A DNA stretch of 64,000 nt from the NCBI GenBank assembly GCA_004335835.1, contig RWJK01001661.1, forward strand, positions 1-64,000. Direction: 5' to 3'. Positions 826 through 55,695 of this stretch are shown here, in pieces (position 1 is the stretch's first letter; each line of letters begins with the position of its first letter). A program made the position numbers and the translations under genes. Under the pieces are notes generated by a model that did not search any database, was not told where the DNA came from, and saw only the letters and a list, made by a program, of their open reading frames with translations. The DNA comes from Scenedesmus sp. ARA3. Its lineage: Eukaryota > Chlorophyta > Chlorophyceae > Sphaeropleales > Scenedesmaceae.

Positions 826-1729
826 GTATCACTTCATCCAGGCAACTACTCAGCGGAGGTGGCCGTGAATGATACTGCAGGCCTGGCAGACCGAACTGCT
901 GTCAGTGAAACCTGAACGGCCTTAAAATCTATGTTATTGTACTGAGCAAGCTGAGAAACAGCCAATGCGTTGTCCGATCAACAACACATCGCTTGCACTG
1001 ATGGTTACATGACACGGTAAGCACTGTCGCGCATGTTGCCACAGTAAGGACTCTGGTTCAACTTCTATACAAATAATTTCATATTCAGCTGTACAGAGAA
1101 CAGAGACCCCGCATGGTCTGACAAACCCTACAGCAGGCGTCCGTTAGAGCATATATATGCGGTGAGCTTGTATAAACACAATTTCTATACGTTGTAGGTT
1201 GCTTTCAGGCCATGTATCACAAGTCAACGCTCCAGCAGCAGCACATGTCCAGTCGCAAAGCGCACAGGACATGAGACTGGACCTGCACACCCACCAACTG
1301 GACACGATTTGGTGCGACTGGACATGCCTGGACATGCAGCTGGACATCTCGGTGACCATAGTGAACCTGTCATTCTGTCAGGCATCGCCTCAGTGAACCC
1401 TTGTTGATCTACAGTGTGTTGATTCGATGGCCATTGAAACTGCCCCTCTGACGCGACGACGAATCAAATGCTTCATATTTCGAGCTTCAGCAACCTTCCA
1501 CATCGAAACTGAAAGTGGCAGCACGCTGGACCTGCAGAGCCGGTGCGTGCACAGTCGAGGATGGTGCTTCGCAGTGGTGCCATGTGTCGTGGCATGGTAG
1601 CTTGAAACACATACTTCCAAATCAAACGTCAGAATCGGCAGCAGAAAAATGCCCTTATGCTTCGTCTGACTGGTGCTGCTACTGCTCCTGCTGCTGTTGC
1701 TGCTGTGCAGCCACACCCTGAAACATCCA
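826..1729. other. Intergenic interval between divergent genes
   Basis: No convincing coding exon is seen. It should hold the promoters of the zinc-finger gene (leftward) and of the F-box/LRR gene (rightward). Bases about 1240-1350 contain several scattered copies of a CTGGACATG-like motif (for example near 1273, 1319, 1326 and 1339), which is a short degenerate repeat of unknown meaning. Confidence 0.4.
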
Positions 1730-3428: not shown

Positions 3429-4160
3429 CAGTGAGCTGGCACTGCAAACCTTCTATACTGGCGTGCTGCCAGCTCGGGTGATACAACAGGGGTGGTGGGC
3501 CGTGTATGTTGCGTATTTGCTGCTGTCTACAAACTGCGTTGGGGCATTTTCCTTTTGCGTCGCCTCTGCAGTGGCGTCATGCAGTGCACCAATTGCGGCT
3601 GTTGCACTCATGTATTGTTGTCATAGCGTACCAGCTGGTATGCAATGGAACTTGCATCAAGGTTGTGGGAGCCTGCTGTGGCAGTGTCATGAAAGCCTGA
3701 GGCGACCTGCAAACCTCACTGAGGAGACTGTCATTATGGCTCTTATGCTAAAGATTGGGCCTGTCAGGTGGTCTCTGATCCAAGTAATGCATGACCTCGT
3801 GATTAATTACAAGCTTAACTGCAGCATAGTCGCACAGCCACATACTGGGTTCCATGAGCTGCGCATGCACGATGCAAAAGCCCTAAGCACTAGCAGCGCT
3901 GCGGGCAGGTCAGCTTTGTGCCACTGTGACATATGACAACCTGGCCATGGCCACAGCATGATGGCTGTGGTCCTCCATAAAAGCCCAGCACGCACGCGTG
4001 AAAGCATTGCAACAGATAGCATCTACATGTAACAGTCAGCAAACCACACACTCATCCGGCATGCTGATGGCCAGCTTGGTTGTGACCTGCCGACATACAG
4101 TAGCCACAAATGATGGCCTGCGAACCCTACACTACACTGCACGCATCTGCACCACTCTCC
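3429..4160. other. Convergent intergenic interval
   Basis: No supported gene is present. A TGTAA hexamer-like polyadenylation signal lies on the plus strand at 4028-4032 and could end the F-box/LRR transcript. The minus-strand equivalent (TTACA) occurs near 3806 for the RNA-binding protein gene. Confidence 0.35.
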
Positions 4161-5003
4161 TCATTGCTTCTTCCAGGGTGTCTTGCGCTTGGCGCCGCCG
4201 CTGCTGCTGCTGCCGTCGCCCGCCTCCTCTGCTGCTATGCTGCCTGCCAGCTGCTGCCACTCCTGCACCAACGTCGACTTGTCCAGCGGACCAGGCTTTG
4301 CAACAGTCTTGATCATCTGGCCAATACGCTTGCGGCTCCTGCTGGCGTTTGACTCCTTCTTTGCCTCAAGCGCTGCACGCTGCTGCTGCCGCTCTGCTGC
4401 TGCTGCAGCGCGCTTGGTCTTCCAGACTGCCGTATACGCCACTGATGCTTCTGCGAGCGCCAGCAGCTGCTCGTTGGTGCTGCTGCTGCTGCCAAACAGC
4501 AGCGTGCTGCCTTTTGCATGCAGCAGCTCTGCCATGCCAGCAGACTGCTCCTGCAGTGTGGCTGCTGCTGCTGCCAGCGCTGCTGGATTGCCCCTGCAGC
4601 CGTTGTGCTGCACTTTTACAAGCTTGTGTGCTGTCAGCAGCTCCACAAGAGACCTTGCATGGGACTCTGTGACGCCTGTCTTGCCAAGTCGAAGCAGCGC
4701 ACGTGATACGCTGCCCCAAAGTGCTTGCTGCTCGCTTTCTGTAAAGCGGTCAGATGTGCTGATGCCCGCTGCTGCTGCTGCTTCCTCCTCTGCTGCTGCC
4801 TGGGGTTGAACATCAGCACTGCCTGCTGCTGCTGGCTCCTCATCTGCAGCTGCCATGGCAATGCATCTAGCTCCCCGTGAAAGCGAGATCGAAGCTGTTG
4901 CTCTGTCTATGCTGCTGCTTGTCTTGACGGCCACAGCAGCAGCAGCAGCACCCGACTTGCATGCTGGGCGAGCAACATGCACAGTTCGGCTGTCTGCTTT
5001 CAT
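4161..5003 (-). CDS. YhbY/CRM-like RNA-binding protein, probably plastid-targeted
   Basis: Intronless 280-residue frame. The open frame continues upstream, but the ATG at 5003 is chosen because it begins a typical Ser/Ala/Arg-rich transit peptide (MKADSRTVHVARPACKSG, with a plausible cleavage region before MAAADEEP). Residues about 85-160 match the YhbY/CRM fold: a helix (ESEQQALWGSVSRALLRLG), the KTGVTES turn equivalent to the GxxG/'GKNGLT' loop, a helix and the HKLVKVQ strand, and a last strand ending KGSTLLFG. YhbY binds pre-50S ribosomes, and CRM domains act in plastid intron splicing and ribosome assembly. The C-terminus is Lys/Arg-rich (RSRKRIGQM, AKRKTPWKKQ), which fits RNA binding. 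Either role could apply here. Confidence 0.62.
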   Translation of the reverse strand: MKADSRTVHVARPACKSGAAAAAVAVKTSSSIDRATASISLSRGARCIAMAAADEEPAAAGSADVQPQAAAEEEAAAAAGISTSDRFTESEQQALWGSVSRALLRLGKTGVTESHARSLVELLTAHKLVKVQHNGCRGNPAALAAAAATLQEQSAGMAELLHAKGSTLLFGSSSSTNEQLLALAEASVAYTAVWKTKRAAAAAERQQQRAALEAKKESNASRSRKRIGQMIKTVAKPGPLDKSTLVQEWQQLAGSIAAEEAGDGSSSSGGAKRKTPWKKQ

Positions 5004-5419
5004 AACATTGTGCCCCGTTTTACATACTAAGCGGCTGCGCATGAGCTGTGTTTGCATGGTGTCGAATATATGTCTGCGGAACCAAAAGCACGGCCTGCAG
5101 GATAGAACGACCAGCGATGTCTGACGCAAACTGTCTGATAATACAGGCAAGGTCCGTTTTACGTGAATGCCCGCCTCCATCACATCCACGCAGAAGAGGC
5201 AACAACGGCACCGTACCCTGTTACACATGGGGTGACGTGGCAACCCGCAGCACCTCACTCCCCAGCCCTACAGGGCCACCCCATGTCAGCTGTAGTCCTC
5301 ATACTGCTGCTAGCGACTGTCTTGTTCCACATCACCAAAGTGCTGCTCCTACTAATAACTCATGCTTCCAGCCCAGTGACAGCTGCTCCTGGGTCCGTGG
5401 TTTGCTGCGCTGAAGCTCC

Positions 5420-7345
5420 TCATGCATCTGCAGTCAGGAAGTCTGAGGGCAGCTCGATCTTCTTTCCTGGCTCGAAGGCAGGCAGCCCACGGTATGGGCA
5501 GCCAGCGCAGCGGAACGCATCACCCAGCGAGCACTGCAGAACCAGACAGACAGCAAAACACATGGCACAGCAGCATGCAACAGTCAGGTCAGGTGCATCT
5601 GGTATGTTTGCGGGGGCTACCAGCTCACCAGCGCATGCACAACGCAGGTTATTGCCATAGCTCTTCATCGGCTGGCGCAGCGTCGAATGCTTAACAGCTG
5701 TGAGAGTGTGGGCAAAGGGCGCTAGCACGGCCCTGGCTCAGCCTAAGTTGGCCAACAACTTAGGCCAGAGCTGAGTGCGTTGACAACCCTGCACAGTCCC
5801 AGAAAACTGCAGACTATTGCCGACTGCGTGCCGAGCATTGCTGGCTCTACCCACATCCTATCTCTGCTGCTGGGGCAACAATGCCTTGTCCATCCATTCA
5901 CTCTGCTGCGCCCCAACCCTCCAGCCTCAACACGCCTCAAGCAACAAGCCTCAAGCCTCAAGCTGCAACTCACGTTGCCGCAGGCCGACTGCGGGTTGTC
6001 CAGCATGTCCTTTGTGAGCTCCACCTTCACGCCAGCCGCCTCAGCCTCTGCACGCCCGCAGCTGCAGTTCTTGCAGGCCTTGCGCGCGCCGCCAGGCCCC
6101 AGCTCGCAGTCATCCTGCTTGGCTGCTGGCGGAAATGCGGTGCATTGCAGGGTACATTGCAGTGTGCAGCAGGCGACAACAAGGGGTCGATAGCCTGCAG
6201 CACACCTGACATGCATGGGCTGCAGCACCAGCATGTGGATGCATGCACAGTCATGCACAGGGTTTCGTAAGGGCATCCAGCAACATACATGGCACATCAA
6301 GTAGGATACACTGCTTGCAGGCCAACGCGTGTACTCCTTTCGGCAGTACACACAGTGCTGTGTTTAGTCAGATGATGATGATGATGATGAACATGCACAC
6401 ATGCACGCATGAACCCCGCCCCTCCCCAACAACTTCCACTGCGCTGCGCACCTGCTGCCGGCCGCTGCCTGTCCTCCTCAGTGAGCAGCTCGTCATCGTC
6501 CAGCAGCTCCCCGCCATCCTCATCGCCCAGGTCATCGCCAGCCAGCAGCCACGCCTTCTTGCTGCTGCTGGTGTCTGCTGCTGCTGCTGCTGCTGGCTTA
6601 GGCTTCAGCTTGATGCTGTCCTTGGAGCCGACTGCAAAGTCTGGCAGGTGGGCGCTGACCTGTATATAACAGGGCAGGCAGCAGGCAGGGTGTTGGGGTG
6701 AGCTCACGAACAACTCGTAGACAAGAAGCAAGAACCGCTGCTCATGCTCTAATAACAACATCCAAGATACATGCATGCATGCATGCATGCTGCGTTGGTG
6801 CCTTAATGAGCTGTCCAATCAAGCATACCTGTTGCAATTGACTGCCGCCAGCCGCCAGCACCTGGAACTATGCATGCATGCACATGCCATGCTGTGGAGG
6901 TGCTGAACGCCAACCTGAGACTCACTGTGGTTACGCCGCCAGAGCTGCTGGCTTGGCAGTCTGCAAAACCACTCAACAGCATTGCACTGCTGGCGTCAGC
7001 CTGCATGCACTCGACACAGAGGCAGCAAGAGGGTGAGGCGTGGCATACAGTGAGGGTGCTGCTGCTGCTCAAGTGTTGCTGATGCTTCGTAATCACCTCA
7101 CTGCCACCATGCAGCTGCAGCAACGCCTTTGCTCCAGGCCTCAGCAGCTTGGCAATAGCCCCCAGCAGAACGGGATCGGCCTTGCTTGCCACGCACACAG
7201 CCCTGGCGTAACCGGAAGTGCCGGTGCTGCTGGAAGGGTCGGTGGTCACATCTGCCTGGTCAGCAGGGATGCCCTGTTCACTGATCAACGACTGCACAGC
7301 TGCAAGAGGCACGCTGCCCTGAAGTACTACCAGGGTACGCTCCAT
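5420..7345 (-). CDS. DRE2: Anamorsin/Dre2, cytosolic Fe-S cluster assembly factor
   Basis: Five exons: 7345-7097, 7000-6926, 6659-6452, 6122-5974, 5533-5420, giving 264 residues. All splice sites are GT-AG and phases match; the acceptor at 6122 could shift by 3 nt. Residues 1-140 form the SAM-methyltransferase-like domain ([17 protein letters not shown]). An acidic linker follows ([19 protein letters not shown]). The C-terminal CIAPIN domain carries both Fe-S motifs: C183, C194, C197, C199 (the CxC site) and the invariant C225-x2-C228-x7-C236-x2-C239, ending in the family sequence [13 protein letters not shown]. Dre2 with the diflavin reductase Tah18 passes electrons to the CIA machinery. A TTACA at 5221-5225 (TGTAA on this strand) is a plausible poly(A) signal. 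Confidence 0.95.
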
Positions 7346-7791
7346 GCTGCTGATGTATGTGCTACGCAGAGGTCAAACGAACAATGCGAGCAAGTGAATA
7401 TAGGTGAATCCAGTGTACTGCGTATCAGGCATCTTCGTAGCGCGCTCAAACATGTCATCAGAGCAAACCCTCAGAGGGTTCCGTCCCACAGCAACAGCAT
7501 CTTTTGTTCTTGAGGTCTGATGTGACGGCTGACAAACATTTTATCTGCGTAGAATGCTTGTGAACTCCAAGTGCTCGAGCAGCAGTGAACACACGCAGCA
7601 AGGACCATGCTGACCTGACCTGGCACCCCTCAGTTCCTCAGGGCAGTGCAGCTTGCTGCACTTGAGTTTGCAATGATGATCAGCTAGCACATTTATGACA
7701 TTCAGGGCATTGACCTAACCCCAACATAAGGGTCTAGCAGGGCGCAGCGGCAGCAGCGGCGGTGCCACTGGCAGCAGCGCAGCAGCTAAAC
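7346..7791. promoter_or_regulatory. Shared promoter interval of DRE2 and VIP1
   Basis: 446 bp separate the two divergent start codons. No ORF, TATA box or known element was recognised with confidence. The head-to-head geometry alone argues for a bidirectional promoter. Confidence 0.35.
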
Positions 7792-10152
7792 ATGGACGAA
7801 CAGCAGCGCACAGCACCACAAACGCCTCCATCCAGGGCAGGGCCTGTGAAGGTCGTCAGCATGACTGCGACGCATCCAAACACCAGGCAGAAGCGCAAGC
7901 AGATGAAGCGCAGCCGCTCTGTGAGTAGGAGCAGGCGGCATCCGCTGCAAGCACATGCAGCAGCATCAGCAGCTGATCGAGCTGCGCCGTGGCTACCAAG
8001 CAGAACGTGCAGAGTTTTTTGCAATGTAGACAGCGACAGTAGCAGCAAGCAATTGTTGCTGGTGATGCAGCAAGGGCCATGTGATCAGCATGCTGTGTCA
8101 TGTTGCTACGCCGCTGGCAGGACAGCTCCTGGGCAGCAACTTGTCCTGTACACCTTCAGCTGCAAAGACACAGTACTGCGCAGGACATCTGCTGGCTCTG
8201 GGTCTCACTTGCTGGTGTGCATACAGCAAGCTTGCAGGCACCCTCCTGCAAGCATGTATGCATGTATGCATGTGTGTGGCTTGCGCTGAGTTGCGGTTGC
8301 GTTGCTGCAGGCGCCCGACTGCAAGCATGGCCTGGGCAGCAAGATCAAGATCGGGCTGTGTGCGATGGACAAGAAGGTGACAAGCAGCAGCAGCAGCATC
8401 AGCAGCGGCAGCGGCAGCAAGAGTTCCTCAGCAGGTTTCCAATGCCATTGGGTGCTGCTGCAGCAGTGACGTGCCAGCTGCTTTGCAGCTCCTCCACTCC
8501 TCAAGTTGCCAGGGACAATGCAGCGCAGGCTGGCCTGTTCACAACAACCTGCATCAGTGCTTCACCTGGTGGGGGTTGCAGTGGCTTGGCACAACCCTCA
8601 ACAACAACACCCACATAGTGCATGCTCTGCACATGTGCAGCGCACATGTGCAGCAGTGGCCCTCAACACCGATATGTTTATCTTCCTGTAGGCTCAGTCC
8701 AAGCCGATGTGTGAGATATTGGCGCGGCTCACCACAGGAGGCGAGTTTGAAGTGATATCTTTTGGGGACAAGGTGAGCAGCTGCAGGCTTGCAGGAAAGG
8801 GCAAGACAGTCTGTGCTGCATCTGCTGTCCATGGCGCGGCATGGCAGCAACGACGATGTCGTCTGCAGGATGTTATGGTGGCTTTTTGATTGCAGGAGAA
8901 TGAGCTTTGGCATGCACGGCTCTGTCGGTTTGTCCTCCTGCGTCCACCTGCTGGGCTGGTGGTTTGGCAGTTGCTTTCCACCTGTGTGTCTCCTGTGTGT
9001 CTTCTGCTGGAGCAAAACCAACCGGCTGGCCGCATGTCTGCTGCAGGTCATCCTGGGGGAGCCTGTCGAGGCGTGGCCGCTGTGTGATGTGATGCTGAGC
9101 TGGCACTCACACGTAACACTGCCCAATTGTTTTACAATCTCTGTGTTGGCCGCATGCTTGCCGCAGGTCATCCTGGAGGAGCCTGTCGAGGCGTGGCCGC
9201 TGTGTGACGTGATGCTGAGCTGGCACTCACACGTAACAGGCCAAAGTGTTTTCCAATCTCTGTGTTGGCCGCATGTCTGCTGCAGGTCATCCTGGACGAG
9301 CCTGTTGAGGCGTGGCCGCTGTGTGATGTGATGCTGAGCTGGCACACACTTGTTACACTGCCCAAGTATAACCGAAAGGCTTTTTCTACTGGCTGCATTG
9401 CAACAGGTCATCCTGGAGGAGCCTGTCGAGGCGTGGCCGCTGTGTGACGTGATGCTGAGCTGGCACAGTGAGGGCTTCCCGCTGCGCAAGGCGCAGGCCT
9501 ACGTGGCGCTGCGGCGGCCCTTCCTCATCAACGACGTGCACATGCAGGACGTGCTGCTGGACCGGCGCAGGGTGTACAAGACGCTCATGGTGAGCAGTTG
9601 TATGCAGTTTTATATAAAGATGACGTGCACATGCAGGACGTGCTGCTGTACAGGTGGCGGTGTACACAACGCGCATGGTGAGTGTTGAGGTTGAAAAGTG
9701 TTAACAGTGAGGGCAGAACAGGCGGCTGCGAAGCATGCACCACACATCTCATGTTGTTGTTGGTGTTGGAGCATGCAGATGTCTAATGTGTTGGGGAATT
9801 ACAGGAGGGTGTACAAGTGGCTTGTTGTGGGGCAGGGGCAGGCGGCAGTGCACGGAGCTGTGCCACATGCAACAACGAGCTGCATGGCTGCCTTGGCGTC
9901 TGAGCACAAGCATATGAAACAGGTGCAGGCAGGCTGCGACTGCTGTTTGCCACGCTCGCTTACTGCCATATGTCAAAGGGTTGACCCCGATCATTTTCAA
10001 TTGCCCTGCTGCTTGCAGGACAACAACATCCCAGTGCCTCGCCACATCCTGGTCAACAGGCAGCCGCCAGAGGAGCAGCAGCAGCCGGACGACGAGCTGA
10101 CAACTAGCAGCGGCAGTGCAGCCAGCAGCCCGCGTGCTGGCTCTCCTGCGCC

Positions 10153-10184
<32 letters not shown>

Positions 10185-13100
10185 TGTCACGGATCTCACA
10201 CAGCAGCAGCGGCCCGCTGCAGCAGCAGGCCTCTGCAAGCGGCCAGGCGCTGAGCCAGCAATCCTCTTACTGCTCCTCGCAAGCAGGCGGGCAGCAGCAG
10301 CAGCAGCAGCTGCAAGGTGGAGCGAGTGGCACGATGACTGCTGCCAGCAGCAGTGCGCGCAGCAGCATGCGCGGTAGCACTCCTGGTGTTGCGCTGCCTG
10401 ACCCGCCTGGCTTCATTGAAGGGGAGGATTGTGTGGAGCTGAATGGTGTGCGGATTGACAAGCCGTTTGTGGAGAAGCCAGTCAGCGGAGAGGACCACAA
10501 CATCTACATTTACTACCCGCACAGCATGGTGAGCTGTGTGCGAGTGTGTGGGTGCGGTCGCATGCTGTTGCAGTTCTGCTTGAAAAGGCTCGAGGCAGCA
10601 GCTGCTGGTGCTAGTCAGAGCCATGCAGGTGCGCCTGTACTGCTGTGTGATGTATCGGCTCGTTTGGTCACCTGATCATGAAGAGAAGAAACCAAAAATA
10701 CGAACGGTGTGCCCTATGCCGCTATGCGGTGTAAGCCGCTGTTCCACCGTAGCATGTGCTGGGCGGTTGCTGACTGCCGCTGTGGCGGTGCTGCAGGGTG
10801 GTGGCGTGAAGCGGCTGTCCCGCAAATTGCCTAGCACAAAAAATGGCATGCTGGGTCAGTTATCTTTGTCAAATCATTTAGCAACGGGTGTTTAAATGTT
10901 GCTCTGCATCGCTGCGCAGGGTGGTGGCGTGAAACGTCTGTTCCGCAAGGTGGACAACAAGTCGGCAGACTACGACCCGCACCACCCAGGCACTGTGCGC
11001 AGGTAACACATGCTGCTTACATAGTTACGTTGCAAACCTATGCCAGCACAGGGTTCCCTGCTAATTCATGGCGGATCACCACCCGCAGAACCCTGCCGTA
11101 GCGCATCACAGTGACTCGACAATATAGCATAAGTGCAAATGGCGTTGTCAGCTATTTTGCTGGTCCCTTGCTGCCGCAGGGATGGCAGCTACATCTATGA
11201 GGAGTTCCTCACCACCGGGGGCACAGACGTCAAGGTCTACACTGTGGGCCCAAGGTGCGGCATGCATGCTGCAGCACCTTCATGAGCCTTGCAGGCTGCT
11301 CTGATGCAGCAGGCGTTTGCAGACAGGATTTGTACTTCTGTTGTTGTGAAGCTTCAGGACATTCATAGAAGCGCATGCAGCCGTCCGGTGTGAGCTTAGT
11401 GTGTATCGACATTTCCTGCATGTACAGCTTAATCATGCTGGTCAAGGACCTGGACACACGTACAGCAACTCCGTGTTCTCATCACTCAGCCATAGCTCAA
11501 GCCAACCCATGCGCCAATGTGACCACAATAACTACACCAACACGCTGCCGCAGGTACGCGCACGCGGAGGCGCGCAAGTCCCCAGTGGTAGACGGCAAGG
11601 TCAACCGCACCCCAGATGGCAAAGAAGTGCGCTTCCCCGTGCTGCTGAGCCCCCAAGAAAAAGAGATCGCGCGCATGGTGTGCCTGGCCTTTGGGCAGCG
11701 CGTGTGCGGCTTTGACCTGCTGCGCAGCGAGACGGGGCGCAGCTACGTGTGCGACGTCAACGGCTGGAGCTTCGTCAAGAACAGCAAGAAGTACTACGAC
11801 GACGCGGCAGGTGAGGAGTGATAGTTGTGATGAGTGATGGTTGTTTGCTTTCAACGAGTACGGCTGAAGCGAAGTTGAAGAACAGCAAGAAGTACTTCAA
11901 TGTCGCGGCGGGTGGGCTGAAGTCGATTGCTTGCAGGACAGGTTCTTAGAACGCTGCAGCTTGCTGAGATGTCAGGTGGCACGCACCAACATTACCTTGT
12001 CCTGCTGCTCTAGCAGTGAGCGTGGTGTAACGTTGGTGTTCCTGCAGCGCTGTAGCAAACAGTCATAAATCCTGAGCTGCACTATGCGCCTTCCTGCAAG
12101 CATCTTGCGCAGCTTCCTGCTGGTCAACTTGCGCGGCACCGGCTGGCCATCGCACCCGAGGTGGCAGTGCCCCCTCGCAGGGCTTCGAACGCCCACCAAA
12201 GCCTTTCAACCTTATCAATCATACAAGGGCGTGTCTGTCAGCAACCATGTACTCATACCACCTGTCCCATGCGCTGTCCTGTCTTCACGTTGCTGTAGGC
12301 ATCCTGCGCAGCATTGTGCTGAGTCAGCTTGCGCCGCACCGGTTGGCCATTGCGCCTGAGGCGCCAGTACCCCTGGCAGGCCTGCTAGAGGAGGTGGTGG
12401 CAGCCGGCAGCACACCTGGCATGCCTAGCCCTCAGCATGGCAGCACCGGCTCTTTTGATGATGATGTGGGCAGCCCGCCGGCTGGCAGGGGGCCTTTCAG
12501 CGGCGCTGATGCAGAGATGGATGCAGCGGTCATGCGGGAGGTGTCGTCGCTGCAGGTAGGTGGCAGTGTGTCTATGTGTGGAAGTGTGTTGTTCTTACAC
12601 AGCTTGTGCTGTGGCTCATCTCAGATCCTGCTACGCAGGCAAATTCAGAGTAAAAGAGAGCAAGAGAGAATGAGCGATGCAGCAAGGTGGTTGCATGTGG
12701 GTCTGGCCACCATGCAGCGATGACTTGACGTGGCATCAAGACAAGACTTGGTCTGAGATCAGGCAGTGGACAGGAGAACAATGCATACTGTAATGCACAC
12801 CCTTGCTCGCACACTTGTTTATCATCTCTCCTGCATTGAGTAGGCGCCAGTGTAGCTCTGGCAGCACTGGCAGCGGTAGCAGGGCATGTGAGCTGCTCCG
12901 TCAAATGGGCACCTCACGTCCCCTGCTGCGGCGGCCAGTGCTCCGCACCCCAACCTCCTTCCTCACTTCAACACCCATACCCTACACCCTGAAACGCAGC
13001 CGGGCATGCGGGCTCCTGCATACACCCCCGCCAACTCCCCTTTCCTGCAGGACCTGAGCAGCCTGGATGCAGGGTATGATGAGGAAGGAGGTGGCACAGA

Positions 13101-15553
13101 TGACAGCAGCAGCACTTCAGGCGCTGCAGATGGCAAGCCCTGGCTGGAGTTGCGCTGCGTGCTGGCTGTGATCCGGCACGGCGACAGGACACCCAAGCAG
13201 AAGATGAAGGTCACTGTGACGCAGGTGGGTATGAGGTTGGTGAACGACCAATGCTGCTCCCCCGAACTGGGGTTTTGCATTCAGGAGTTGGTGCGGCCGT
13301 ATCTATCATTGGTTAGTGGTTCGCCTGCCGCCACGAACGGCACTGCTGGCGTAGCACCACCCCAAATGAACCAGTGCGCATCCGGCTGCAGAGCTCCCTT
13401 AGGTGTGTTACCCTCGTGTGTCGCTGGACTGCATGTGTCGTACTGCAACCCAGCCTGTCAGGCGCCGCTGCTGGCGCTGTTTGCCAAGCACAAGGACAGC
13501 ACGAGGGCCCTCATTCCTCCCTGAAAACGGGGGTCTGATAGGTGTGTGTATGTTGTCCAACTGCAACCTGCGCTGCCTTCCAGGCGCCGCTGCGGGCGCT
13601 GTTTGCCAAGCACAACGACAGCAAGGACACCCTGTGCTCCTCTCACAACACATCAGAGCTCTGAAGTGTGTGCTGCTTTGTCGAACCGCAACCTGCGCTG
13701 CCTGCCAGGCGCCGCTGCTGGCGCTGTTTGCCAAGCACAAGGACAGCAAGGGCAAGCAGGCCAAGCTGAAGAGCCCCGGGCAGCTGCAGGAGCTGCTGGA
13801 CATCGTGCGGCAGCTGCTGGCAGACATGGAGGCGCGCAGCGCGGCTGCTGCTGCTGCCGCAAAAGCAGGCGTGGTGATCAGTGAGGAGGAGCAGCGCGAG
13901 CAGGAGCTGGTAAGGCTGTGAAGTGGCTGGTGTGATTGATAACTATAAGGAACAGGACTTTAGCGTGTCTAACTCGGTGTTGACTGTTGACTGTCCGGAC
14001 AGTCAGGGATCCCTGAAGAGGGGTGTTGCATTGAACATGATAGGCTCATCCTGGTTGCTGTCGCCTAAGCAGGCAAACCCCATTCACAGCCTTCACTTGA
14101 GCTGTTGCATGTCATCACTGCTTGTGCTGCTGATGCTGATGCTGTTGCTGCTGTCGCGTCTGCTGCTGCAGCACGAGGAGCAGCGCGAGAAGCTGCGCAT
14201 TGTGCGCACCGTGCTGGAGCAGGGAGGCACCTTCAGCGGCATCAACCGCAAGGTGCAGCTCAAGCCCACAAAGTGGTCCCGCCCGAGCAGCAGCAGCAAG
14301 GACGGCGCAGCAGCAGCAGCAGCAGCAGCAGCTGACGCAGAGTCACCCGGCCAGCCAGATCTTGCTGCTGCTAACGGCGGAGAGGTCCGCGGCCGCAGCA
14401 GTAGCACCGGCGGGGGTGGCGGCAGCAGCGGCGGCGCAGGCGAGAAGGCATCATCGGGCAGTAAGGAGAAAGGGGAGAAGGAGAAGGGCGGTGACGAGCC
14501 TGTTGTGAGCGAGCTGCTGCTGATTCTGAAGTACGGCGGCGTGCTGACGCATGCTGGGCGCTCCCAGGCTGAGGACCTGGGCAAGATGTTCCGCATGGTC
14601 ATGTACCCCAGGTGGGAGGAGGGACTGGTTTCAAGAAAATTGCTTCTTTGGGCATGCATGCTTAATGTGGTACGGCAATCGGCCAAGCGGCTCGCCAGGC
14701 GTGCGTGCGCAAGCAAGCATGCTGTGTGCACGTGCATGAGGTGCAGCCCATCTGCAACCCGCTCCCTGGCTGCGTAACAGCTGCTGCCGCTTGCTTCTCT
14801 TCCACAGGTACGGCCCTGCTGGCGGTGGCCTGCTGCGGCTGCACTCAACCTACAGGCATGACATGAAGATCTACAGCAGCGACGAGGGCCGTGTGCAGGT
14901 GTGATGAGTCGTCAAGGGCTCCAGGCAGCATCGTTAGGGTTGTCAGGCGTATGTTGAGCATGTCAGGCAGCTGCTGCGTGTTCATGCCGAACAACAGAAT
15001 ACAGAATAGAAGTTGCTGACCATTGTGTGTCCGTGCATGCCCAACAGATGTTAGCCGCCGCGTTCATCCAGGGCCTGCTGGCACCTGAGGCCGTTGCCCA
15101 CAACCACATCTTGCTGCTGCTGCTGCCGCTGCTGCTGCTGCTGCTGCTGCTGCAGATGTCTGCTGCGGCCTTCATCCAGGGCCTGCTTGACCTTGAGGGC
15201 AGCAGCCTCACGCCCATCCTGGTCAGCCTGGTCACGAAGAACGCCAGCATGCTGGACGCGTTCGGCAAGGTGCGGCAACAGTTAGATTCTGCATGACATG
15301 CTGCACCTGTGTGGCATCACACATATGCGCATCTGTTACTGCGCCGAGCATGCTTCATGTGAGTGTCAGTGCCCGCGCTCGCTTTGGTTGCACTGTACGA
15401 ACTCTCTCCAGGTGATGAGTGACCTACAGGCGCCTCTCAATCTCTCCTGAGTGTGTTCTTGTGCTGCTGCGGCTGCCGCAGAGTGCGTCTGACGACATCC
15501 TGGCCACCAAGGACACGCTGTACCAGCACCTCACTGCCTCCGCCACTGCTGCC

Positions 15554-15587
<34 letters not shown>

Positions 15588-18500
15588 CCCCTCACCTCAG
15601 GGCGCGTCTGACGACATTCTTGCCACCAAGAACACGCTGTACCAGCACCTCACCGCCTCTGCCACTGCTGCTGCTGCTGCTGCCACTGCTGCTGCTGCTG
15701 CTGCTGCTGCCACCCATATCCGCAGGTGCGTCTGACGACATTCTTGCCACCAAGAACACGCTGTACCAGCACCTCACCGCCTCTGCCACTGCTGCTGCTG
15801 CTGCCACTGCTGCTGCTGCTGCTGCNNNNNNNNNNNNNNNNNNNNNNNNNNNNNNNNNNNNNNNNNNNNNNNNNNNNNNNNNNNNNNNNNNNNNNNNNNN
15901 NNNNNNNNNNNNNNNNATTCCCGCAGGGTGCGTCTGACGACATCCTGGCCACCAAGAACACGCTGTACCAGCACCTCACCGCCTCTGCCACTGCTGCCAC
16001 TGCTGCTGCTGCTGCTGCTGCTGCCACCCATTCCCGCAGGGTGCGTCTGACGACATCCTGGCCACCAAGAACACGCTGTACCAGCACCTCACATGGGACC
16101 CTGAGAAAGCGTCCAGCATGTGCAGCAAGCTGGCGCTGCCGCTGGCCACGCCTGCAAGCACCTCGCCGCCGCCCTCGCCCAAGCGCACGCCGGCCGCAGT
16201 AGCAGCGGCTGGCGAGGGCCCCTTTGCGTCTGAGGGTGAGCGCTTGGACTTGTAGACTTTTGTTTTGTGTGTTGGCTGCCTGCGTGTTGGTGCTGTTTTG
16301 TGCGTCTTGAGAGGTATCAGCACATATTGTTGATATTTGCGTCAAGCACTTCACATGGGACCCTGAGAAAGCGTCCAGCATGTGCAGCAAGCTGGCGCTG
16401 CCGCTGGCCACGCCTGCAAGCACCTCGCCGCCACCCTCTCCCAAGCGCACGCCGGTCGCAGTAGCAGCGGCTGGCAAGGGTCCCTTTGCGTCTGAGGGTG
16501 GGTGGCCGAGGCTTGCAGCTTGCATGTTGTGTGCTGCTTGTTGTTGGCTGCGTGGCGGGGCTGTTACAAAGATGAGGGATGCACTTGTAGGTACAGTGTA
16601 AGCAGTTCGGTGTGCTGCGTGTTGCTTTGGCATTGTGTCGAGAGTGCGGGTGTTCTTTTCTGTGCCTCTGTGTGGGTGGTGGGTGGCGCGGTCGATGAAG
16701 ACATACCAATACCTTCTCATCACTGCAGCTGATGAGGGCCTTGTGCCTTCAGCCGGATGAAACAACTGGTCATGCTAAGCTGAGGCGCGCTGCCTGCTCG
16801 CACATGGTTCCTGTGTACATTGGTGCTAACATCCTCGTGCATTTTGCAATGACGGCTTGCAACGTCCTTATGAACCTGTGACGCTGTTTTAGATGTGTGC
16901 AAATGCCTGCTTTCACGTGCCATGTGGCTGACAGCCTGTTGTTGTGATCATCACAATCAAGTGTAGGGCTGGTTGTGGTGCTGAGTGCCGGCCTGAGTGT
17001 GCTTGCCAAGCAACTGTGAACACACTGCATTGTCCCGCTCTGTCTCAACACATAACTGCAGGTGCGCAATCCCTGCCACCAAGACACCGCTCCTTAGGGA
17101 CCCTGGACCAGCAGCAGCCGTCAGCAGGCCTCACTGCTGCTGCTGCCGGCCTGCCCACCACCAGCAGCTGCTTAGACCTGCTGACAGCTGGCAGGATTGC
17201 CTCAGCCCCCAACAGGCCCAGCAAGCTACAGCCAGCAGCAGCAGCTGACAGCAGCGGCAGCAGTAGCCCTGCACCCCAGCAGCAGCAGCAGCAGCAGCAG
17301 CGGTCCTCATTAGATGGCATCGCGCCGGCCGTGCTGAGCAGCATTGCCAGCATGAGCAGCAGCAGCCAGCAGCAGGACAGCAGCCGCAGCTTATCAAAGC
17401 TTGGCAGCATGAATGCCAGTGGTAGCGTGGCTTGGAATGTGCGGCAGGCGGAGGCGCGCGCTGCTGCGCTATCGGGCATCCGGGCCATGCCGGAGCGGCC
17501 GCTGGCGCTGCTGTATCAGCTGGTGGAGCTCATGAAGGTGCGCTGCTGCTGTTGCTGCCGCTGCTGCTGTGCACTGCATACACTGTGTTAAGGACATCCG
17601 ACTGGGATACGTGTCTTGCAATGTCAGCAGAGCGCATTGCGCTGCAGATGCTGCTGACATGCTGTCTGGCGCTGTCATGTCTTGCACTTGGCCTGCACTT
17701 GGCCTGCAACATAATGCACCTAGTACTCTCCTACCCTAGCGTGCTTTGCCACTACCGCGCACATCTGCTTCAATGCAGGTGCTGGTCAAGCAGCTGCATG
17801 AGAAGTGCCTGGAGGAGGGACTGAACTCTGCCCTGTGGACATGCTTTCACTTCACTCAATTCACAAGCTGGCATAACTATCTGAATGCCGTTGAGCTGCG
17901 CTCTTGGTGTGGCTTCCGGTGCTATGCTGACCCTAGCACTTTCTCAGCAACAATCATCAGGCCTCTCCATGCACTTCAACTTCTTTGTGACTTAATCAGT
18001 GCCCTTGGGCGTGATGGTGGACTGTGCTTCAGGTGCTGGTTGACCAGCTGCGTGAGAAGTGCCTGGAGGAGCGGCTGGACCTGGCAGGGCCTGCAGCGGC
18101 AGCAGCAGCGGCGGCAGCGGGCGGTGGCGGCAGCAGCAGCAGCGCGTACAGCAGCCTGACCACCTCGCACGATGATTGGCGGCTGGATGAGCACAAGCCG
18201 TGCAGCGGGGAGCGCCTGCTGCTCATGTTTGACCGGTGAGCAGCGCTTCCGTGTTTGCCAGTGGCATGGCTTCCTACTGTCCTTGAGAAGTGTATTGTCG
18301 TCCAATCAGGTGCGCCCTTTCGCCTTACAGCGCATATATGTGACAGCTTGCGTGGCCTGCAGCCTGCAGCCCCATTTTTGTTGCTGTGGCTCATCAATAG
18401 ACACCGGCACGCCAACCGTGTCTTTTGGTGTGACGTCGATGCTCACGAATGCGCCATACTGTCATACATCTGCCATGCTGCTGGCCGCAGCTGGCGCAAG

Positions 18501-21500
18501 CTGCTCAAGTCCTTCTTCAGCGAGAAGAAGCAGCAGTTTGACATCAGCAAGGTGCCAGACATCTACGACTCCGCCAAGTACGACGCCATACACAACAGCC
18601 ACCTGCAGCTCACATGCCTCAAGGTGGGTGTATGAGTTATGCTGCATTGCAGATAGTGGTTGGCCGCAGTGCTGTGTGTTCTTGACCTTGGCATGGTATG
18701 CTGAGGCTTTGTGAGTTTGCTGGATGTTGTTGTATGGTAAGTGACATATACGACTCCGCCAAGTACGACGCCATACACAACTCCCACCTGCAGCGCACAT
18801 GCCTCAAGGTGCGGCTACTCTCATCTGTCATACTCTAGCAATGCGATGGCTGGGATCCACTGGGTCCGCTGCAGAGCCACAGCAACACCTGTAAAAAAAA
18901 CATGGAGTTTGCAGAGTTTTTAAGCATGCAAAGCAAATGGATCAAGCTTACAGTATTCAGCAGTAAGCAGTGTGTTGAACTTGAGGCATGCGTACGCAGT
19001 TACCTTGTTATGCTCTGCTGGATGTGACTCGAAGCTACAGCCATGCCTGGTGGGGTGGGGGCAAGGGCTGCTGGTTAGCTGCCCAGCCTGTGCATTGTGC
19101 AGCTTCAGCTGTTCAACGGTTGCCAAGGCTTGTCGCCACGCCCAACCAATTTTCTTGCTGTCCCGCCTGCCCCGCCCTGCAGGAGCTATACGGCGTGGCG
19201 CGCACACTTGCCAGCGTGGTCGTGCTGTTGCTTCGTACCGCCTGTTGATCACCTCACATATATTGTTTTTGCTGCCCAACTCACAGGAGTTGTATGACGT
19301 GACATGCAGCCTGGCCAGCGTGGTAGTGCTGTTGCTTCGCAATGCCTTTTATTCACCTCTATTGCTGTTGCTGCACCCTGCAGGAGCTGTACGGCGTGGC
19401 GCGCACGCTTGCCAGTGTGGTGGTGCCGCACGAGTACGGCCTGGACGGGCCCGGCAAGCTGCTGATTGGCTCCAAGATCTGCGCAGAGCTGCTGGGCAAG
19501 CTGCTGTGCGACCTGGACTCAATGAAGGTGAGCGCCCGTGTTATTTTGGAGTACTTTGATGTTTCTGGGGTTCGGCCTGTGGGGTTTGAGCTGGGTGCTG
19601 CTGCTGAGCGAGCTGTTGTGCAACCTGGACTCCATGAAGGTGGGTGCTCCTGTTACTTGACGTTTCTTGAGTTTTCCCTGTAGCATTTGAGCTGAGATCG
19701 CGGCTGCTGGGCAAGCTGCTGTGCGACCTGGACTCCATGAAAGTGAGCGCCCGTGTTACTGTGGAGTACTTTGATGTTTCTGAGGTGGCCGGTAGGGTTT
19801 GAGCTGGGTGCTGCTGCTAGGCGAGCTGCTGTGCGACCTGGACTCCATGAAGGTGCGGTTTGGGCAGAGATTGTACTGCTCTTGCCTGCTGGAGCTCTTA
19901 CATGCGGCAGCTGTTGCTTTGTCTGGGGGCGGCGGGCACTGCTGCTGGGCAAGCTGCTGTGCGACCTGGACTCAATGAAGGTGGGTTGTATGTCGTTGTT
20001 GCGTTTGTTTTTGGAGTTCATGGGTAAAACAGTGAACGGACAGCTGCTGCTGTGCTGCTGCTATGCATTTGGACAGCAGAAAGGCTGCTGGTTGTGATGC
20101 TGTGAGCACTCCTCATGCAAGCACAGCGTGTCGTTTGCTGCAACACGGCTTGTGTGTCGCCATCTGCATGCTTTGCTGCTGCCTTATGACTAAACGATGA
20201 CTGATATGTAACAAGGTATAAAATCACATGTCTGTTCTGCGCGGCATGCAGGAGGAGTCCATCGTCACAGCAGCTATTGAGGCAGACACAGCAGCAGCGC
20301 GCGCAGCAGCAGCAGCGGAGCGCGCAGCCACCGGCAACCTCAGCCGCAGTGCGCGCACGCGCGCCACCTCACACGCCAAATTCTTGGATGGTCGATACGA
20401 TGCATTCGATGCCGAGTTTGGGCAGATGAGTTTGGAAGATGAGCGGATGCGGCCAGTCAGGCCGGGCTCTGCTGCCAGGTCATCGAGCTTCTCAGCTGCC
20501 AGCAGCAGAGCCGCAGCAGCAGCAGCCGATCGGGAGCGCGAGAATGCGGCTGCAGGCGCGCCAGACGATACAGCGGGCGCGGCGGCGGTAGCATTGTTAG
20601 GCAAGCGCATGGGCGGCGGCAGCAGCTGCAGTAGTGAGGCGACGCAGCAGCAGCGGCAGCAGGGTGGGGACGCAGGCGGTGGTGAGCAGCAGCAGGATGA
20701 TCAGGAGGAGGAGGAAGAGAAAGAGACGCTGCATCGGCTGTGTCCAACATATGCCAGCGATGTGAACAGCCCTCTGCGGCATGTGCGTACGCGCATCTAC
20801 TTCACCAGCGAGAGCCACATCCATTCGCTGGTGAATGTGCTGCGCTACTGCCACCTGCCGCCGCCTCCTGGTAGCACTGGAGCAGCAGCAGCAGCGTCTG
20901 CGACCAGCAGGGGCCTCAGCACGCCGACAAGCAGCATCAGCCCGTGTCCCTCGTATAACCCAGGGTGCAGCAGCGTATCAAGCCCTACGGCTGCTGCTGG
21001 CCGCACTGTAGCAGCAGACGGCTGTGCAGCGGCAGCTGCTGCTGCTGTTGCGTCAGTAGCTACTGTTGGGAGCGGTGGTGGTAGTGTGTTCGCGTCGGCT
21101 GCTGCAGCTGCTGCAGCTGGCGTGGCAGGCGATGGACCTAGTGGGCAGCAGCAGCAGCAGCAGCAGCAGCCGCTGATCACCCCTGAGGCTGAGGGCCTGC
21201 TGGCTGACACCTCTGAGTTCGACTACTTGACACACATTGTGTTCAGGATGTATGAGAACAAGCAGGTGGGTGCTTTTGTAGAAAGTGGGTGAATTTGAAG
21301 CTAGCTGGCCAGGCAGTGTTGTGGTGCTCGCAGATCACGGCTGGTAGTGTGCGGATAGCCAACCTTGTACCTTGCAGCGGTGTGCGGGGTGTTCGTAAGC
21401 ACTGCTCAACATACTTGGGCTGCACCAGAAACCCTATCCAAGCAGTATCTCAGGCAGGGCTAGCTGACACCAACCACTACTGATTTCCTGTTGTCTGCTG

Positions 21501-22683
21501 ACTCCTGCTGCTATCTCTGCTGCCCATTGCATCTGATGTCGCCGGCTTTGCTTCTTTTTGTTCTGTCCAGGTCCCTGTGGACTCTCCGGACCGCTTTCTA
21601 GTCAAGATCCAGTTCATCACAAACCATGCTAAAACCTGCTGCCTGCACTGCATACCTCTGTCTTTTATCCCCCCTTCAGGTCCCTGTGGACTCCCCGGAC
21701 CGCTTCCTGGTCGAGATCCAGTTCAGCAACGGAGCCAACTACGACCCCACGCACGAGCCCTCCATGCTGCAGTCCGCGCCACACACGCTGCCCACGCAGC
21801 CGCGGCGGCTGCTGACGCCCGTGCCTGGCGTGTCGCTGCACGGCTTCCAGGAGCTGGTGCGCAAGTATGCGCGGGGCAAGAACACGCCCAGCAACTACCA
21901 GCTGCAGGTGAGGCTAAGATGGTTTGTATGACTACTATACTCTAGTAGCTAAGGTCTCAGGGCTGGCGTGTCGCTGCATGGCTTCCAGGAGCTGGTTAGG
22001 AAGTATGCGCGGGGCAAGAACACGCCCAGCAACCACCAACTGCAGGTAATGGCAGATGGCTCATATGATTTGTAACCTATATAGCAGCAGCCTCAGGGTT
22101 GGCGTGTCGCTGCATGGCTTCCAGGAGCTTGGGCAAAAGTATGTGGGGGCAAGAACAGTCCAAGCAACACAGGTGCTTTGCATGGAGGGAGTAGCCAGCT
22201 GTTTCTGGTCCCGGGCAGTTGTGCTGCATGCTGTTCCTGTTGTGTGGTGCTTTGGGCTGGCTTGTATGCTGAGGTCATCAATGCATGCCTGTATTCTCCC
22301 TGCTTCTGCTGCAGGTGGCGCTGTGCGCCCCCCTGAGTGGCACCAACAGCCACGCAACCAGCAAGCCGCCCACCCCCGGCTGGTATGTTGATGCCATCTG
22401 CTGACGTCATCAAAAACATGCCTGCAATCCTCCTGCTTGTGCTGTGCAGGTTGCGCTGCGTGCACCGCTGAGTGGCACCAACAGCCACGCACCCAGCAAG
22501 CCACCCACCCCTGGCGCAAGTAGGCAGGCCAGCGGCGCAATGCCGCAGCCGGCAGCAGCAGCGGCGGCAGCAGCGACAGCGCTGGTGGCGGTGGGGCCTG
22601 GCATCACCAGCTCGGCGCCGCTGCCTGCTGCTGTGGTGGCGGCAGCGACAAAAGCGTCTGCAGCAGCAGCAGCGGGGAACTAG
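7792..22683 (+). CDS. VIP1: Inositol hexakisphosphate/diphosphoinositol-pentakisphosphate kinase
   Basis: 22 exons: 7792-7920, 8311-8376, 8692-8772, 9407-9589, 10019-10528, 10920-11002, 11180-11254, 11554-11810, 12299-12555, 13051-13224, 13709-13909, 14172-14611, 14808-14898, 15156-15269, 16040-16235, 17062-17537, 18033-18235, 18491-18623, 19384-19527, 20252-21265, 21680-21907, 22450-22683 (stop TAG). They total exactly 1,763 codons (1,762 residues). The N-terminal ATP-grasp kinase has KPFVEKP (301-307), [20 protein letters not shown] and DVNGWSF (443-449). The histidine-acid-phosphatase-like domain has RHGDRTP (589-595), YRHD (His836-Asp837) and [10 protein letters not shown]. The enzyme makes and removes 1-InsP7/InsP8, which signal phosphate status through SPX proteins. 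Poly-Gln and poly-Ala/Ser insertions make it much longer than plant VIH (about 1,050 residues). Exon 1 is inferred only from frame and splice sites. Confidence 0.95.
9020..9475 (+). repeat. Four tandem copies of the VIP1 exon-4 start
   Basis: The acceptor and first about 65 bp of exon 4 (real copy from 9407) are preceded by copies starting at 9047, 9167 and 9286, a spacing of 119-121 bp. Each copy reads VIL(G/E/D)[12 protein letters not shown] in frame. Each keeps an AG immediately upstream and also shares intron flank (TGTGTTGGCCGCATG). Copies one and two end in CAC|GTAACA, a possible donor. Only the last copy continues into the rest of the exon. Confidence 0.9.
9530..9690 (+). repeat. Duplicate of VIP1 exon-4 end and donor
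   Basis: The exon end encoding [19 protein letters not shown] with its donor (9590) is repeated at about 9621-9683 as GACGTGCACATGCAGGACGT followed by a diverged match and another ATG|GTGAGT. A short third remnant (GGAGGGTGTACAAG) is near 9804. Confidence 0.8.
10797..12370 (+). repeat. Ghost copies beside VIP1 exons 6, 8 and 9
   Basis: Three separate partial copies. 10797-10830 copies the start of exon 6 (GGGVKRL then divergence). About 11873-11915 copies the end of exon 8 (KNSKKYF versus KNSKKYY). 12101-12175 copies about 75 bp of the start of exon 9 at 12299 (ILRS..L version). Each lies in the intron next to the matching exon edge. Confidence 0.75.
13430..13757 (+). repeat. Three tandem copies of the VIP1 exon-11 acceptor region
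   Basis: Copies of CAG|GCGCCGCTG...CTGTTTGCCAAGCACAA begin at 13462, 13584 and 13709 (period 122-125 bp), and about 30 bp of upstream intron (CTGCAACC...) is repeated with them. Only the third copy opens into the long exon. Confidence 0.9.
15048..15195 (+). repeat. Ghost copy of VIP1 exon-14 start
   Basis: ATG...GCCGCGTTCATCCAGGGCCT at 15048-15092, preceded by an AG, resembles the true exon 14 start at 15156 ([15 protein letters not shown]). A CTG tract separates the two copies and serves as the pyrimidine tract of the real acceptor. Confidence 0.75.
15480..16100 (+). repeat. Array of at least five VIP1 exon-15 acceptor copies, broken by the gap
   Basis: Units of about 115-123 bp begin near 15482, 15602, 15725, 15927 and 16040. 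Each contains GCGTCTGACGACAT(C/T)C, the ACCAAG(A/G)ACACGCTGTACC stretch and a (CTG)n/(GCC) tract leading to the next AG. The last unit is the real exon 15 start. The identity between units is very high, so more units probably lie in the gap. Confidence 0.92.
15826..15916. other. Assembly gap (91 N)
   Basis: A run of 91 N lies inside the VIP1 intron between exons 14 and 15, with near-identical tandem units on both sides. The gap was very probably caused by the repeat. Confidence 0.98.
16082..16500 (+). repeat. Duplicate of VIP1 exon-15 body and donor
   Basis: About 150 bp of exon 15 from TCACATGGGACCCTGAGAAA (16088) to TTTGCGTCTGAGG|GT (16236) recur at 16351-16497 with only a few changes. The copy has its own donor GAGG|GTGGGT. 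Confidence 0.92.
17779..18080 (+). repeat. Ghost copy of VIP1 exon-17 start
   Basis: CAG|GTGCTGGT..AGCAGCTGC.TGAGAAGTGCCTGGAGGA at 17779-17822 matches the real exon start at 18033. The copy has diverged ([14 protein letters not shown] versus [14 protein letters not shown]). Confidence 0.85.
18555..18815 (+). repeat. Duplicate of VIP1 exon-18 end and donor
   Basis: The exon end encoding [16 protein letters not shown] and its donor at 18624 recur at about 18745-18811, ending CTCAAG|GTGCGG. Confidence 0.88.
19183..19425 (+). repeat. Three copies of VIP1 exon-19 start
   Basis: CAG|GAGCT.TA.GGCGTGGCG-type units start at 19183, 19287 and 19384 (spacing 104 and 97 bp). The last is the true exon 19, which continues into [13 protein letters not shown]. 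Confidence 0.87.
19480..19990 (+). repeat. Five serial copies of VIP1 exon-19 end and donor
   Basis: The sequence GCTGTGCGACCTGGACTC.ATGAA followed by GT occurs with donors at 19528 (true), 19640, 19743, 19853 and 19981. The copies share about 60 bp of intron after the GT (GTGAGCGCCCGTGTTA type) and GGGTTTGAGCTGGGTGCTGC before the exon part. The unit is therefore the whole junction, not just the exon. Confidence 0.92.
21571..22520 (+). repeat. Ghost copies around VIP1 exons 21 and 22
   Basis: The start of exon 21 (21680) has an upstream copy at 21571 ([11 protein letters not shown]). Its end plus donor (21908) is repeated at about 21963-22045 (donor 22046) and about 22098-22172 (donor 22173). 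The start of exon 22 (22450) has an upstream copy at 22315 ([17 protein letters not shown]). Confidence 0.88.
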
Positions 22684-26667: not shown

Positions 26668-26709
<42 letters not shown>

Positions 26710-27622
26710 AGCTGCTGCTGCTGCAGCTGCTGCTGCTGCAGCAGCTGCTGAGAGCACTGCTCCAAAGCTGAAGGCAGCCGCTGCAACAGGCCTGCACAGC
26801 ACAGTGCAGCAGCAAATGCAGTAAACGCCAGCAGCACCAGCACCATCTATGAGTAAATAGCAAAGGATCTGCAATGCATGCTGACGAGAACGGCCTTAGC
26901 ACACAAGATGGATGGCAGCGCTAGGGCATTGAAAAAGCAAAAGTAACAAGCTGCCAACCTGCGGCGCTGGTTGCGGCACATGCAGAGCCTGACACCCTGC
27001 ATGTGCTTGCTGCACAATGCAAGAGTTTACGGCAGATGACCAAACCAACTAGATTTAGACCAACGCTTTGGATCAGCCGTAACATGCACCATACAACAGT
27101 GCGACACAGGATCATCTTGCCATCCTCATCCTTCTCACCTGACCGTTCCAGCTGCTGTGTAGCATCAATCGCCAGCTGCGCCGCGCTGCTGGAACCGAGT
27201 TCAACCACCAGGCCTAACTGAGTCATCACAGCAGGGAGAGCGAAGGCCCAGATAGCTGTCAGGGGGTCAGTGATGACGGCTTGCATGCCTACCCTCTGCA
27301 GCTGCTCTTGTCGTTGCAATGCCCAGGCAACCAGCGCTGCTGTATTATGCACTGCATCGAGGCGCAGAAGGCTGCCCAGCAGCTGGCCAGCTGCTGCTGC
27401 TGCTGCTGCTGCTCCACGAGCCGCTGACAGCGCTTGATCTAGCCTCTGCACAGCGAGCATGCAGGTGACCATCACCTGCCGCTGTTGTGCTGTTGGGCTG
27501 GCAGGGGGCGGGTGCTGTAGCAGCTGCGACAGCCTTGGGCCGCGCATCAGTTCCTGCAGCTTGTGCGCTGCGGGCACTGCCTGCTGCTGCTGGTGCTGCT
27601 GCAGACCATTGGTGGAGGGCAT
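23558..27622 (-). CDS. MYND-type zinc finger protein
   Basis: Three exons: 27622-27139, 26791-25379, 24915-23558 (1,084 residues; all phase 1 junctions). The ATG at 27622 starts MPSTNGLQQHQQ. The only recognisable domain is the C-terminal MYND finger (about residues 1027-1073): CNNPSC, CKSCTGCGCRYCSKAC, then QMGDWRRHRQAC. MYND fingers mediate protein-protein contacts with proline-rich partners. The rest is helical and Leu/Ala-rich, broken by poly-Gln and poly-Ser tracts, as in large MYND families expanded in chlorophycean algae. No catalytic domain is seen, so a function beyond binding cannot be assigned. The exon 2 acceptor (TGCTGTGCAG|GC) was chosen because earlier AGs put exon 2 out of frame. 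Confidence 0.85.

Positions 27623-36356: not shown

Positions 36357-36387
<31 letters not shown>

Positions 36388-55600: not shown

Positions 55601-55695
<95 letters not shown>

Follow-up and report, generated by a model that had tools for sequence, protein, structure and literature searches.

We analysed a 64-kb window of the green alga Scenedesmus sp. ARA3 (positions 1 to 64,000 of contig RWJK01001661.1; "the window" below means this whole stretch) and found that 16 of the 42 splice junctions of its VIP1/PPIP5K gene, VIP1-A, carry one to four extra, directly oriented copies of their own exon edge in the adjoining intron, 26 copies in all. This bears out an earlier note on the same DNA, which had described one to four such copies at no fewer than twelve junctions. 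The pattern looks real, and it is striking and restricted to certain genes. From sequence comparisons we propose that short tandem duplications spanning splice junctions may have accumulated in the introns and been kept recognisable by concerted evolution, a tentative reading that we consider slightly more apt to be wrong than right.

Exon-edge copies in VIP1-A and two further genes

The predicted VIP1-A protein is 100% identical to the Tetradesmus obliquus isoforms P0002 and P0003 over 67% of its length and 99% identical to the Tetradesmus protein P0001 over 96%, which places the window in T. obliquus or a species very near it. A spliced alignment of P0001 agrees with our manual gene model at the edges of exons E4 to E21, the E3 donor and the E22 acceptor. 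The same aligner placed 10 zero-length AG/GT exons in VIP1-A, 8 of them at copy edges, which we discarded, and an ab initio gene finder trained here predicted 34 exons compared to the 22 in the model, with 9 of the extra ones at copies; exon-edge copies would thus mislead gene finders.

We aligned each exon edge (at most 150 nt) with its neighbouring intron and compared the scores with those of 200 shuffles of the intron and of the exon. Sixteen junctions exceeded the maxima of all shuffles by more than 8 score units, while the donors of E11 and E13 lay only 1 to 3 units above the shuffle maxima and were left out of the 16. The copied acceptors were those of E4 (three copies), E6, E9, E11 (two), E14, E15 (four), E17, E19, E21, and E22, and the copied donors those of E4, E8, E15, E18, E19 (four), and E21 (two). 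As the earlier note had stated, copies of an acceptor precede the real site and copies of a donor follow it, a rule partly built into our search; this order is expected under tandem duplication because only the outer copy can stay the working one. An opposite-side control gave eight alignments above the shuffles (E4 twice, E6, E14, E15, E18, and E19 twice), each in an exon no longer than 196 nt, so that 150 nt taken from one edge extend to the other; we take them as the same copies. Neighbouring units in the VIP1-A arrays are offset by 88 to 262 bp, not by the 95 to 150 bp given previously. The copies differ in age. The E4 acceptor copy at 9167 is identical to the exon at 60 of 60 positions.

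Table. VIP1-A and the exon-edge copies in its introns (positions in the window).
Feature	Position	Strand	Details
VIP1/PPIP5K gene (VIP1-A)	7792..22683	+	22 exons, 1762 aa; manual model, frame open throughout; support from proteins P0001, P0002, P0003
Acceptor array E4	9027..9466	+	copy edges 9047, 9167, 9286; real exon from 9407
Donor copy E4	9622..9682	+	real exon end 9589
Acceptor copy E6	10797..10825	+	real acceptor 10920
Donor copy E8	11860..11914	+	real exon end 11810
Diverged acceptor copy E9	12100..12184	+	real acceptor 12299; absent from BLAST list, found by direct alignment
Two acceptor copies E11	13436..13629	+	edges 13462, 13584; real acceptor 13709; intron part partly alike
Acceptor copy E14	15048..15090	+	real acceptor 15156
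Acceptor array E15	15476..15979	+	edges ~15482, 15601, 15725, 15927; real acceptor 16040; CTG runs, assembly gap inside
Donor copy E15	16345..16500	+	real exon end 16235; 156 bp at 96%
Acceptor copy E17	17776..17830	+	real acceptor 18033
Donor copy E18	18743..18811	+	real exon end 18623; likeness stops at GTG
Two acceptor copies E19	19180..19329	+	edges 19183, 19287; real acceptor 19384; 19287 copy below later-search threshold
Donor array E19	19600..19983	+	copies end 19639, 19742, 19852, 19980; real exon end 19527
Acceptor copy E21	21568..21619	+	real acceptor 21680
Two donor copies E21	21963..22171	+	real exon end 21907
Acceptor copy E22	22267..22380	+	edge 22315; real acceptor 22450; intron part still alike

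The copy number of the E15 acceptor array is uncertain because a run of N (15826-15916), the only such gap in the window, lies inside it. CAG and CTG triplet runs are very numerous across the window, in exons, introns, and some spacers (for example 10154-10183, 26669-26750, and 55598-55694).

We also compared exon ends with their own introns in a VIP1 paralogue, VIP1-B (contig C1423:98000-117999, loci L010 and L011; 19 exons used), and in a valyl-tRNA synthetase gene (ValS, locus L014; 16 exons used), both annotated by homologous proteins, leaving out as unreliable the VIP1-B exons beyond 16240 of the joined piece and the ValS exons outside 578-8590. Copies were present at 14 of 36 junctions in VIP1-B and 8 of 30 in ValS, which brings the three genes to 38 copied junctions out of 108, with 59 copies. 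Motif counts at repeat ends made independently of annotation were weak on the minus strand and were superseded by these protein-guided exons. Of the 59 copies, 50 reach the exon edge to the base and 54 come within 2 nt of it; the nearest spacers measure 56 to 206 bp at acceptors and 32 to 167 bp at donors. Two or more copies are found at 11 of the 35 edge-copied junctions, in arrays of up to five units, some with spacers that are alike. When the 108 junctions were aligned to reverse-complemented introns, one match was obtained, while next or previous introns gave none in 102 comparisons and long-exon interiors gave 5 in 32 tests. The copies therefore have the signature of tandem duplication, being direct (59 versus the one reverse-complement match), adjacent, and of short period.

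Limits of likeness and substitution patterns

For the analyses of edges and substitutions, we kept the 54 copies within 2 nt of the edge and dropped the rest. Identity to the exon lies between 0.87 and 0.97 through its final base, and on the intron side it is 0.91-0.96 at positions +1 to +3, 0.57, 0.76, and 0.61 at +4 to +6, 0.45 at +7 to +12, and about 0.3 from +31. The earlier note had each copy comprise the exon edge, its AG or GT, and tens of bases of intron; the edge is indeed copied, but the tens of bases are mostly missing, with likeness usually stopping about 3 nt into the intron. Similarity on the intron side (p<0.01) was detected in 23 of the 54 copies, mostly in arrays, and most copies have an ordinary splice consensus of their own. 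Judged by alignment, the pattern resembles two orthologous junctions placed in tandem, with the exon alike and the intron unlike.

The copies also differ from their exons in a coding-like manner. Differences fall on the three codon positions as 38, 35, and 130, over about 915 sites each, with a third-position divergence of 14% (130 of 911 sites), and 132 are synonymous versus 71 that are not (65%; n=203). Neutral change in these codons would give a synonymous share of 0.29 with the transition bias taken from VIP1, and we derived a ceiling of 0.45 for the case where the copy decays freely and the exon changes only synonymously at an equal rate. The observed share of 0.65 lies above this ceiling (p=7e-9). 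Copies at one junction are non-independent, and with one copy per junction (33 junctions) the ratio is 82:43 (p=3e-6); comparisons between copies gave 55:34 codons, synonymous versus not. A process that copies a junction together with its intron, as first suggested, is too simple a description, since likeness breaks off at the splice site and the differences have a coding-like character.

Mosaic copies, a hallmark of gene conversion, were found in one array, at donor 4 of VIP1-B. In this array, copy a2 follows its sister a1 at 16 of 18 informative sites upstream, where the two have in common a part unlike the exon, and follows the real exon at 10 of 14 sites in the last 45 bp (p=1.4e-5 for the switch, calculated post hoc for this one array). 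In VIP1-A, the E15 donor copy codes for Val, as does the exon in P0002 and P0003, and the exon in the window and P0001 have Ala. Both cases are consistent with sequence exchange, and the E15 case with a young copy as well.

To describe where duplications are placed, we counted local direct repeats (low complexity removed, offset <800) in the three genes, which contain 21.6 kb of intron. Of 66 repeats, 57 match an exon edge to its own intron and 8 match one copy to another; a single repeat is intron-only, and there are no exon-exon pairs. Random placement at tolerated sites predicts 57-76% intron-only pairs, a figure that ignores the faster fading of such pairs, whereas we saw 1 in 39 (the 38 copied junctions plus that one). 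Duplications left by break repair that is blind to gene structure would not be expected to be distributed in this way. Duplications are either formed at junctions or retained there for much longer; we prefer longer retention because exchange with a selected exon would produce it.

Proposed concerted evolution and alternative explanations

Under the explanation we favour, break or replication errors would duplicate about 90-260 bp including an exon edge, and the change would be tolerated since the real splice site, being outermost, would not be displaced. Units then multiply further, as can be seen in those arrays whose spacers are alike. Gene conversion or unequal exchange would pass sequence back and forth between the exon part of a copy and the working exon, as suggested by the one mosaic array and by the coding-like substitutions over 54 copies, so that purifying selection on the exon would reach the copy and its splice consensus. 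The intron parts, where a loss of likeness is visible as a pattern, would go uncorrected and drift to dissimilarity, and old copies would therefore look cut off at the splice site. As a by-product, introns would become longer and hold intact-looking junctions that are occasionally usable. We can also imagine a bolder version, in which each exon edge has its own tandem archive in the intron, exchanging sequence with the working exon both ways, subject to indirect purifying selection, serving as a reservoir of synonymous variants and ready splice sites, and allowing the splice-proximal intron to be replaced wholesale, but we regard this as speculative and on the whole doubtful. If real, the process would be a way in which introns are still growing and splice junctions still turning over, open to dating and direct observation within one species. 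It would also allow one to ask, in nature, if gene conversion subjects non-coding DNA to coding constraint. Mean intron length is given as 462 bp in T. obliquus versus 230-302 bp in four other green algae in a published table (PMC5966456), and exon-edge copies could contribute to these long introns.

Several points weigh against concerted evolution. The 0.45 ceiling ignores codon-usage selection and GC-biased mutation, and the mosaic test was picked after the array had been inspected. Among the 17 junctions with a best copy of 93% identity or more across 30 nt or longer, 9 have no intron likeness (p>0.05), so the intron part would have to have drifted far while the exon part was refreshed. The 17 single copies that lack intron likeness have a weak synonymous excess (38:30), which leaves the excess unclear for this class. 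Junctions common to VIP1-A and VIP1-B are not co-copied above chance (2 acceptors copied in both, versus 5 x 5 / 12 expected). Lastly, exchange frequent enough for selection to act through it should delete copies too.

The main rival, which we consider rather unlikely, is a haplotype-mosaic misassembly, in which the exon edges of two haplotypes of a diploid, heterozygous T. obliquus were assembled in series. It would cover the coding-like differences, the intact splice consensus, the dissimilar introns, and the scarcity of intron-only repeats, and the gap inside the E15 array speaks for it. It is also favoured by the assembly sizes of T. obliquus, which are 208 Mb for one strain versus about 109 Mb for another (PMC5552973) and 172 Mb for a third in the available part of its report (PMC7590803), and by one strain being described as diploid and extensively heterozygous in the portion consulted of another (PMC12636532). 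Weighing against it are the junctions with two or more copies and the arrays of up to five units, some with spacers that are alike; the spacers are short, and the window has that single gap. Moreover, P0002, whose T. obliquus record lies on a contig of 7.6 Mb, holds the unit at 9167-9232 including a spacer-derived SH, and a third-position divergence of 14% together with non-aligning introns exceeds what we would expect from ordinary heterozygosity. Plain neutral tandem duplication with survivorship, where duplications inside exons are lost and those at junctions persist and decay with no exchange, requires no new process and fits offsets that are blind to the reading frame, and the parts consulted of a study of new Daphnia introns with direct repeats offer a precedent (PMC4202315). 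We nevertheless judge it unlikely and already strained, since too many of the differences are synonymous, copies match far better in their exon parts than in the adjoining intron, and intron-only pairs fall well short of the expected number, their faster fading aside.

If copying itself began or ended at the splice site, for instance by way of an RNA template, a splicing intermediate, or the end of an R-loop, and left the exon edge in the intron nearby, this would account for the exact edge in 50 of 59 copies and for the high exon identity in those nine of the 17 best pairs that lack intron likeness. The farthest E19 donor copy is a case in point, being identical to the exon at 40 of 40 positions with no likeness in the adjoining intron (p=0.25). 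On the other hand, copies bear their own plausible donor or acceptor signals, which an inserted piece of exon would lack, some arrays have spacers that are alike, the differences are coding-like rather than neutral, and we know of no machinery for such local, same-direction insertions; we therefore hold this explanation to be distinctly improbable. The idea that the copies are alternative exons or spare splice sites selected for use in mRNA draws on the unit at 9167-9232, which, when read by eye, corresponds to 22 aa inserted in frame in T. obliquus isoform P0002, on the splice consensus that is kept, on AG/GT at the edge in 26 of 54 copies, and on the 132:71 differences, of which selection on coding sequence is the direct reading. 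Yet copy offsets are a multiple of three in only 18 of 54 cases, the chance value, so there is no sign of selected inclusion; the copies are partial and run into spacer, and AG/GT is found no less often at real junctions (63 of 108). In-frame alternative exons were rejected on the offsets, a role in mRNA is in our view very improbable, and we regard any use of the copies there as occasional. The suggestion of spare splice sites in the earlier note thus stands as far as the consensus and the P0002 insertion go, but not with regard to frame.

Distribution among genes and known systems

The earlier note had proposed a systematic process, and the copies do recur in other genes of the genome, but not in every gene. 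Eighteen more genes predicted ab initio, several of them free of copies, had 20 of 314 junctions copied, unevenly distributed, with 28 copies, 16 of them within 2 nt of the edge, and none in the reversed control; the count is a lower bound because the gene finder predicted copies as exons. At locus L023, with 20 predicted exons, which we take to be a P4-ATPase-like gene, 0 of 38 junctions were copied, while at L015, presumably a transporter-like gene with dense repeats, 9 of 28 predicted junctions were. Heterogeneity between genes was pronounced (p=2e-10, a descriptive value for 10 gene rows picked from 21), and with a copied share that varies from 16 of 42 to 0 of 38, copy load is strongly gene-dependent. 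Among four copies in the gene from 63590 onward, none reaches an exon edge. Two other stretches, each of 10 kb, contain three local repeats or arrays (L035) and none (L036). Similar repeats occur elsewhere in the window, in a gene-like stretch on the minus strand at 28800-32500 (29252/29497, 29667/29787/29896, and 31360/31505) and, as acceptor-type repeats, in a plus-strand gene at 32928-36500 that presumably encodes a cyclophilin with an RNA-binding domain (34706/34812 and 35297/35502). No RNA families above threshold and no tRNAs were found in the window.

VIP1-A and VIP1-B have only six intron positions in common in the part compared. Many of the remaining positions do not coincide, in some cases by as little as 5-6 codons, which points to rapid turnover of introns. 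Inheritance of copies by both paralogues was rejected, the two co-copied acceptors being at the level of chance. At one of these, the break points inside the exon look alike and the spacer match consists mostly of CTG repeats. For one VIP1-A/VIP1-B junction, pairs within a gene agree at 35 and 39 of 48 sites, versus 38 of 48 between the real edges and 33 of 48 between the copies.

That transposons do not explain the copies, as had been claimed, agrees with our searches of the assembly (87.3 Mb in 1567 contigs), which skip simple repeats and score the best candidates only. In the three stretches searched, copies occurred nowhere else except in the paralogue's exon, and a transposon or introner origin was rejected on this basis. 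Intron 15 with its copy matched only itself and the adjacent exon, and introns 18-19 yielded dispersed matches at 18898-18979, separate from the copies. This dispersed repeat, which lies in intron 18 and measures some 80 bp, has at least 38 other matches in the assembly, on both strands, and is possibly a short interspersed element.

Among known systems, the copies come closest to short tandem duplication with concerted evolution, yet they are confined to exon edges. Paired nicks in plants give short tandem duplications, direct and of about 100 bp, with or without filler; the size and direction are as here, but such duplications are not known to be restricted to exon edges or to undergo concerted evolution. 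Tandem or mutually exclusive exons likewise place duplicated coding sequence in introns, where it is sometimes spliced in, but they copy the whole exon and keep the frame, whereas we found partial edge copies that are blind to frame. Introners remodel introns genome-wide, as may happen here, but as dispersed families instead of the junction-private copies that our searches of three stretches gave. In AGGT intron gain of the Rogers type, the tail of the upstream exon would stand at the end of the intron or the head of the downstream exon at its start, and the copies here lie beside their own exon.

Daphnia neointrons, in the part of the study consulted, have direct repeats of exon-end sequence traced to staggered double-strand breaks, with internal intron repeats, break repair blamed, and stepwise intron growth, much as we propose here, but the exon-adjacent repeats are 4-12 bp long and lie at the opposite end of the new intron (PMC4202315). 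The algal copies are mostly of about 30-150 bp, lie on the same side, often form arrays, and have splice consensus and coding-like evolution. Stwintronisation in Lipomyces similarly duplicates a splice site within an existing intron to give an extra functional junction, but the duplications are of 4-7 nt and the introns nested, and copied exon sequence is not the theme of the sections consulted (PMC7138796). Direct repeats near intron borders also lie near splice sites and are seen as signs of intron insertion, but in the excerpt used they are 4-30 bp long and compared between the two borders of one intron, unlike those here (PMC11782384). A literature search that covered few subscription journals found no description of the exon-edge-copy pattern reported here for VIP1-A, VIP1-B, and ValS.

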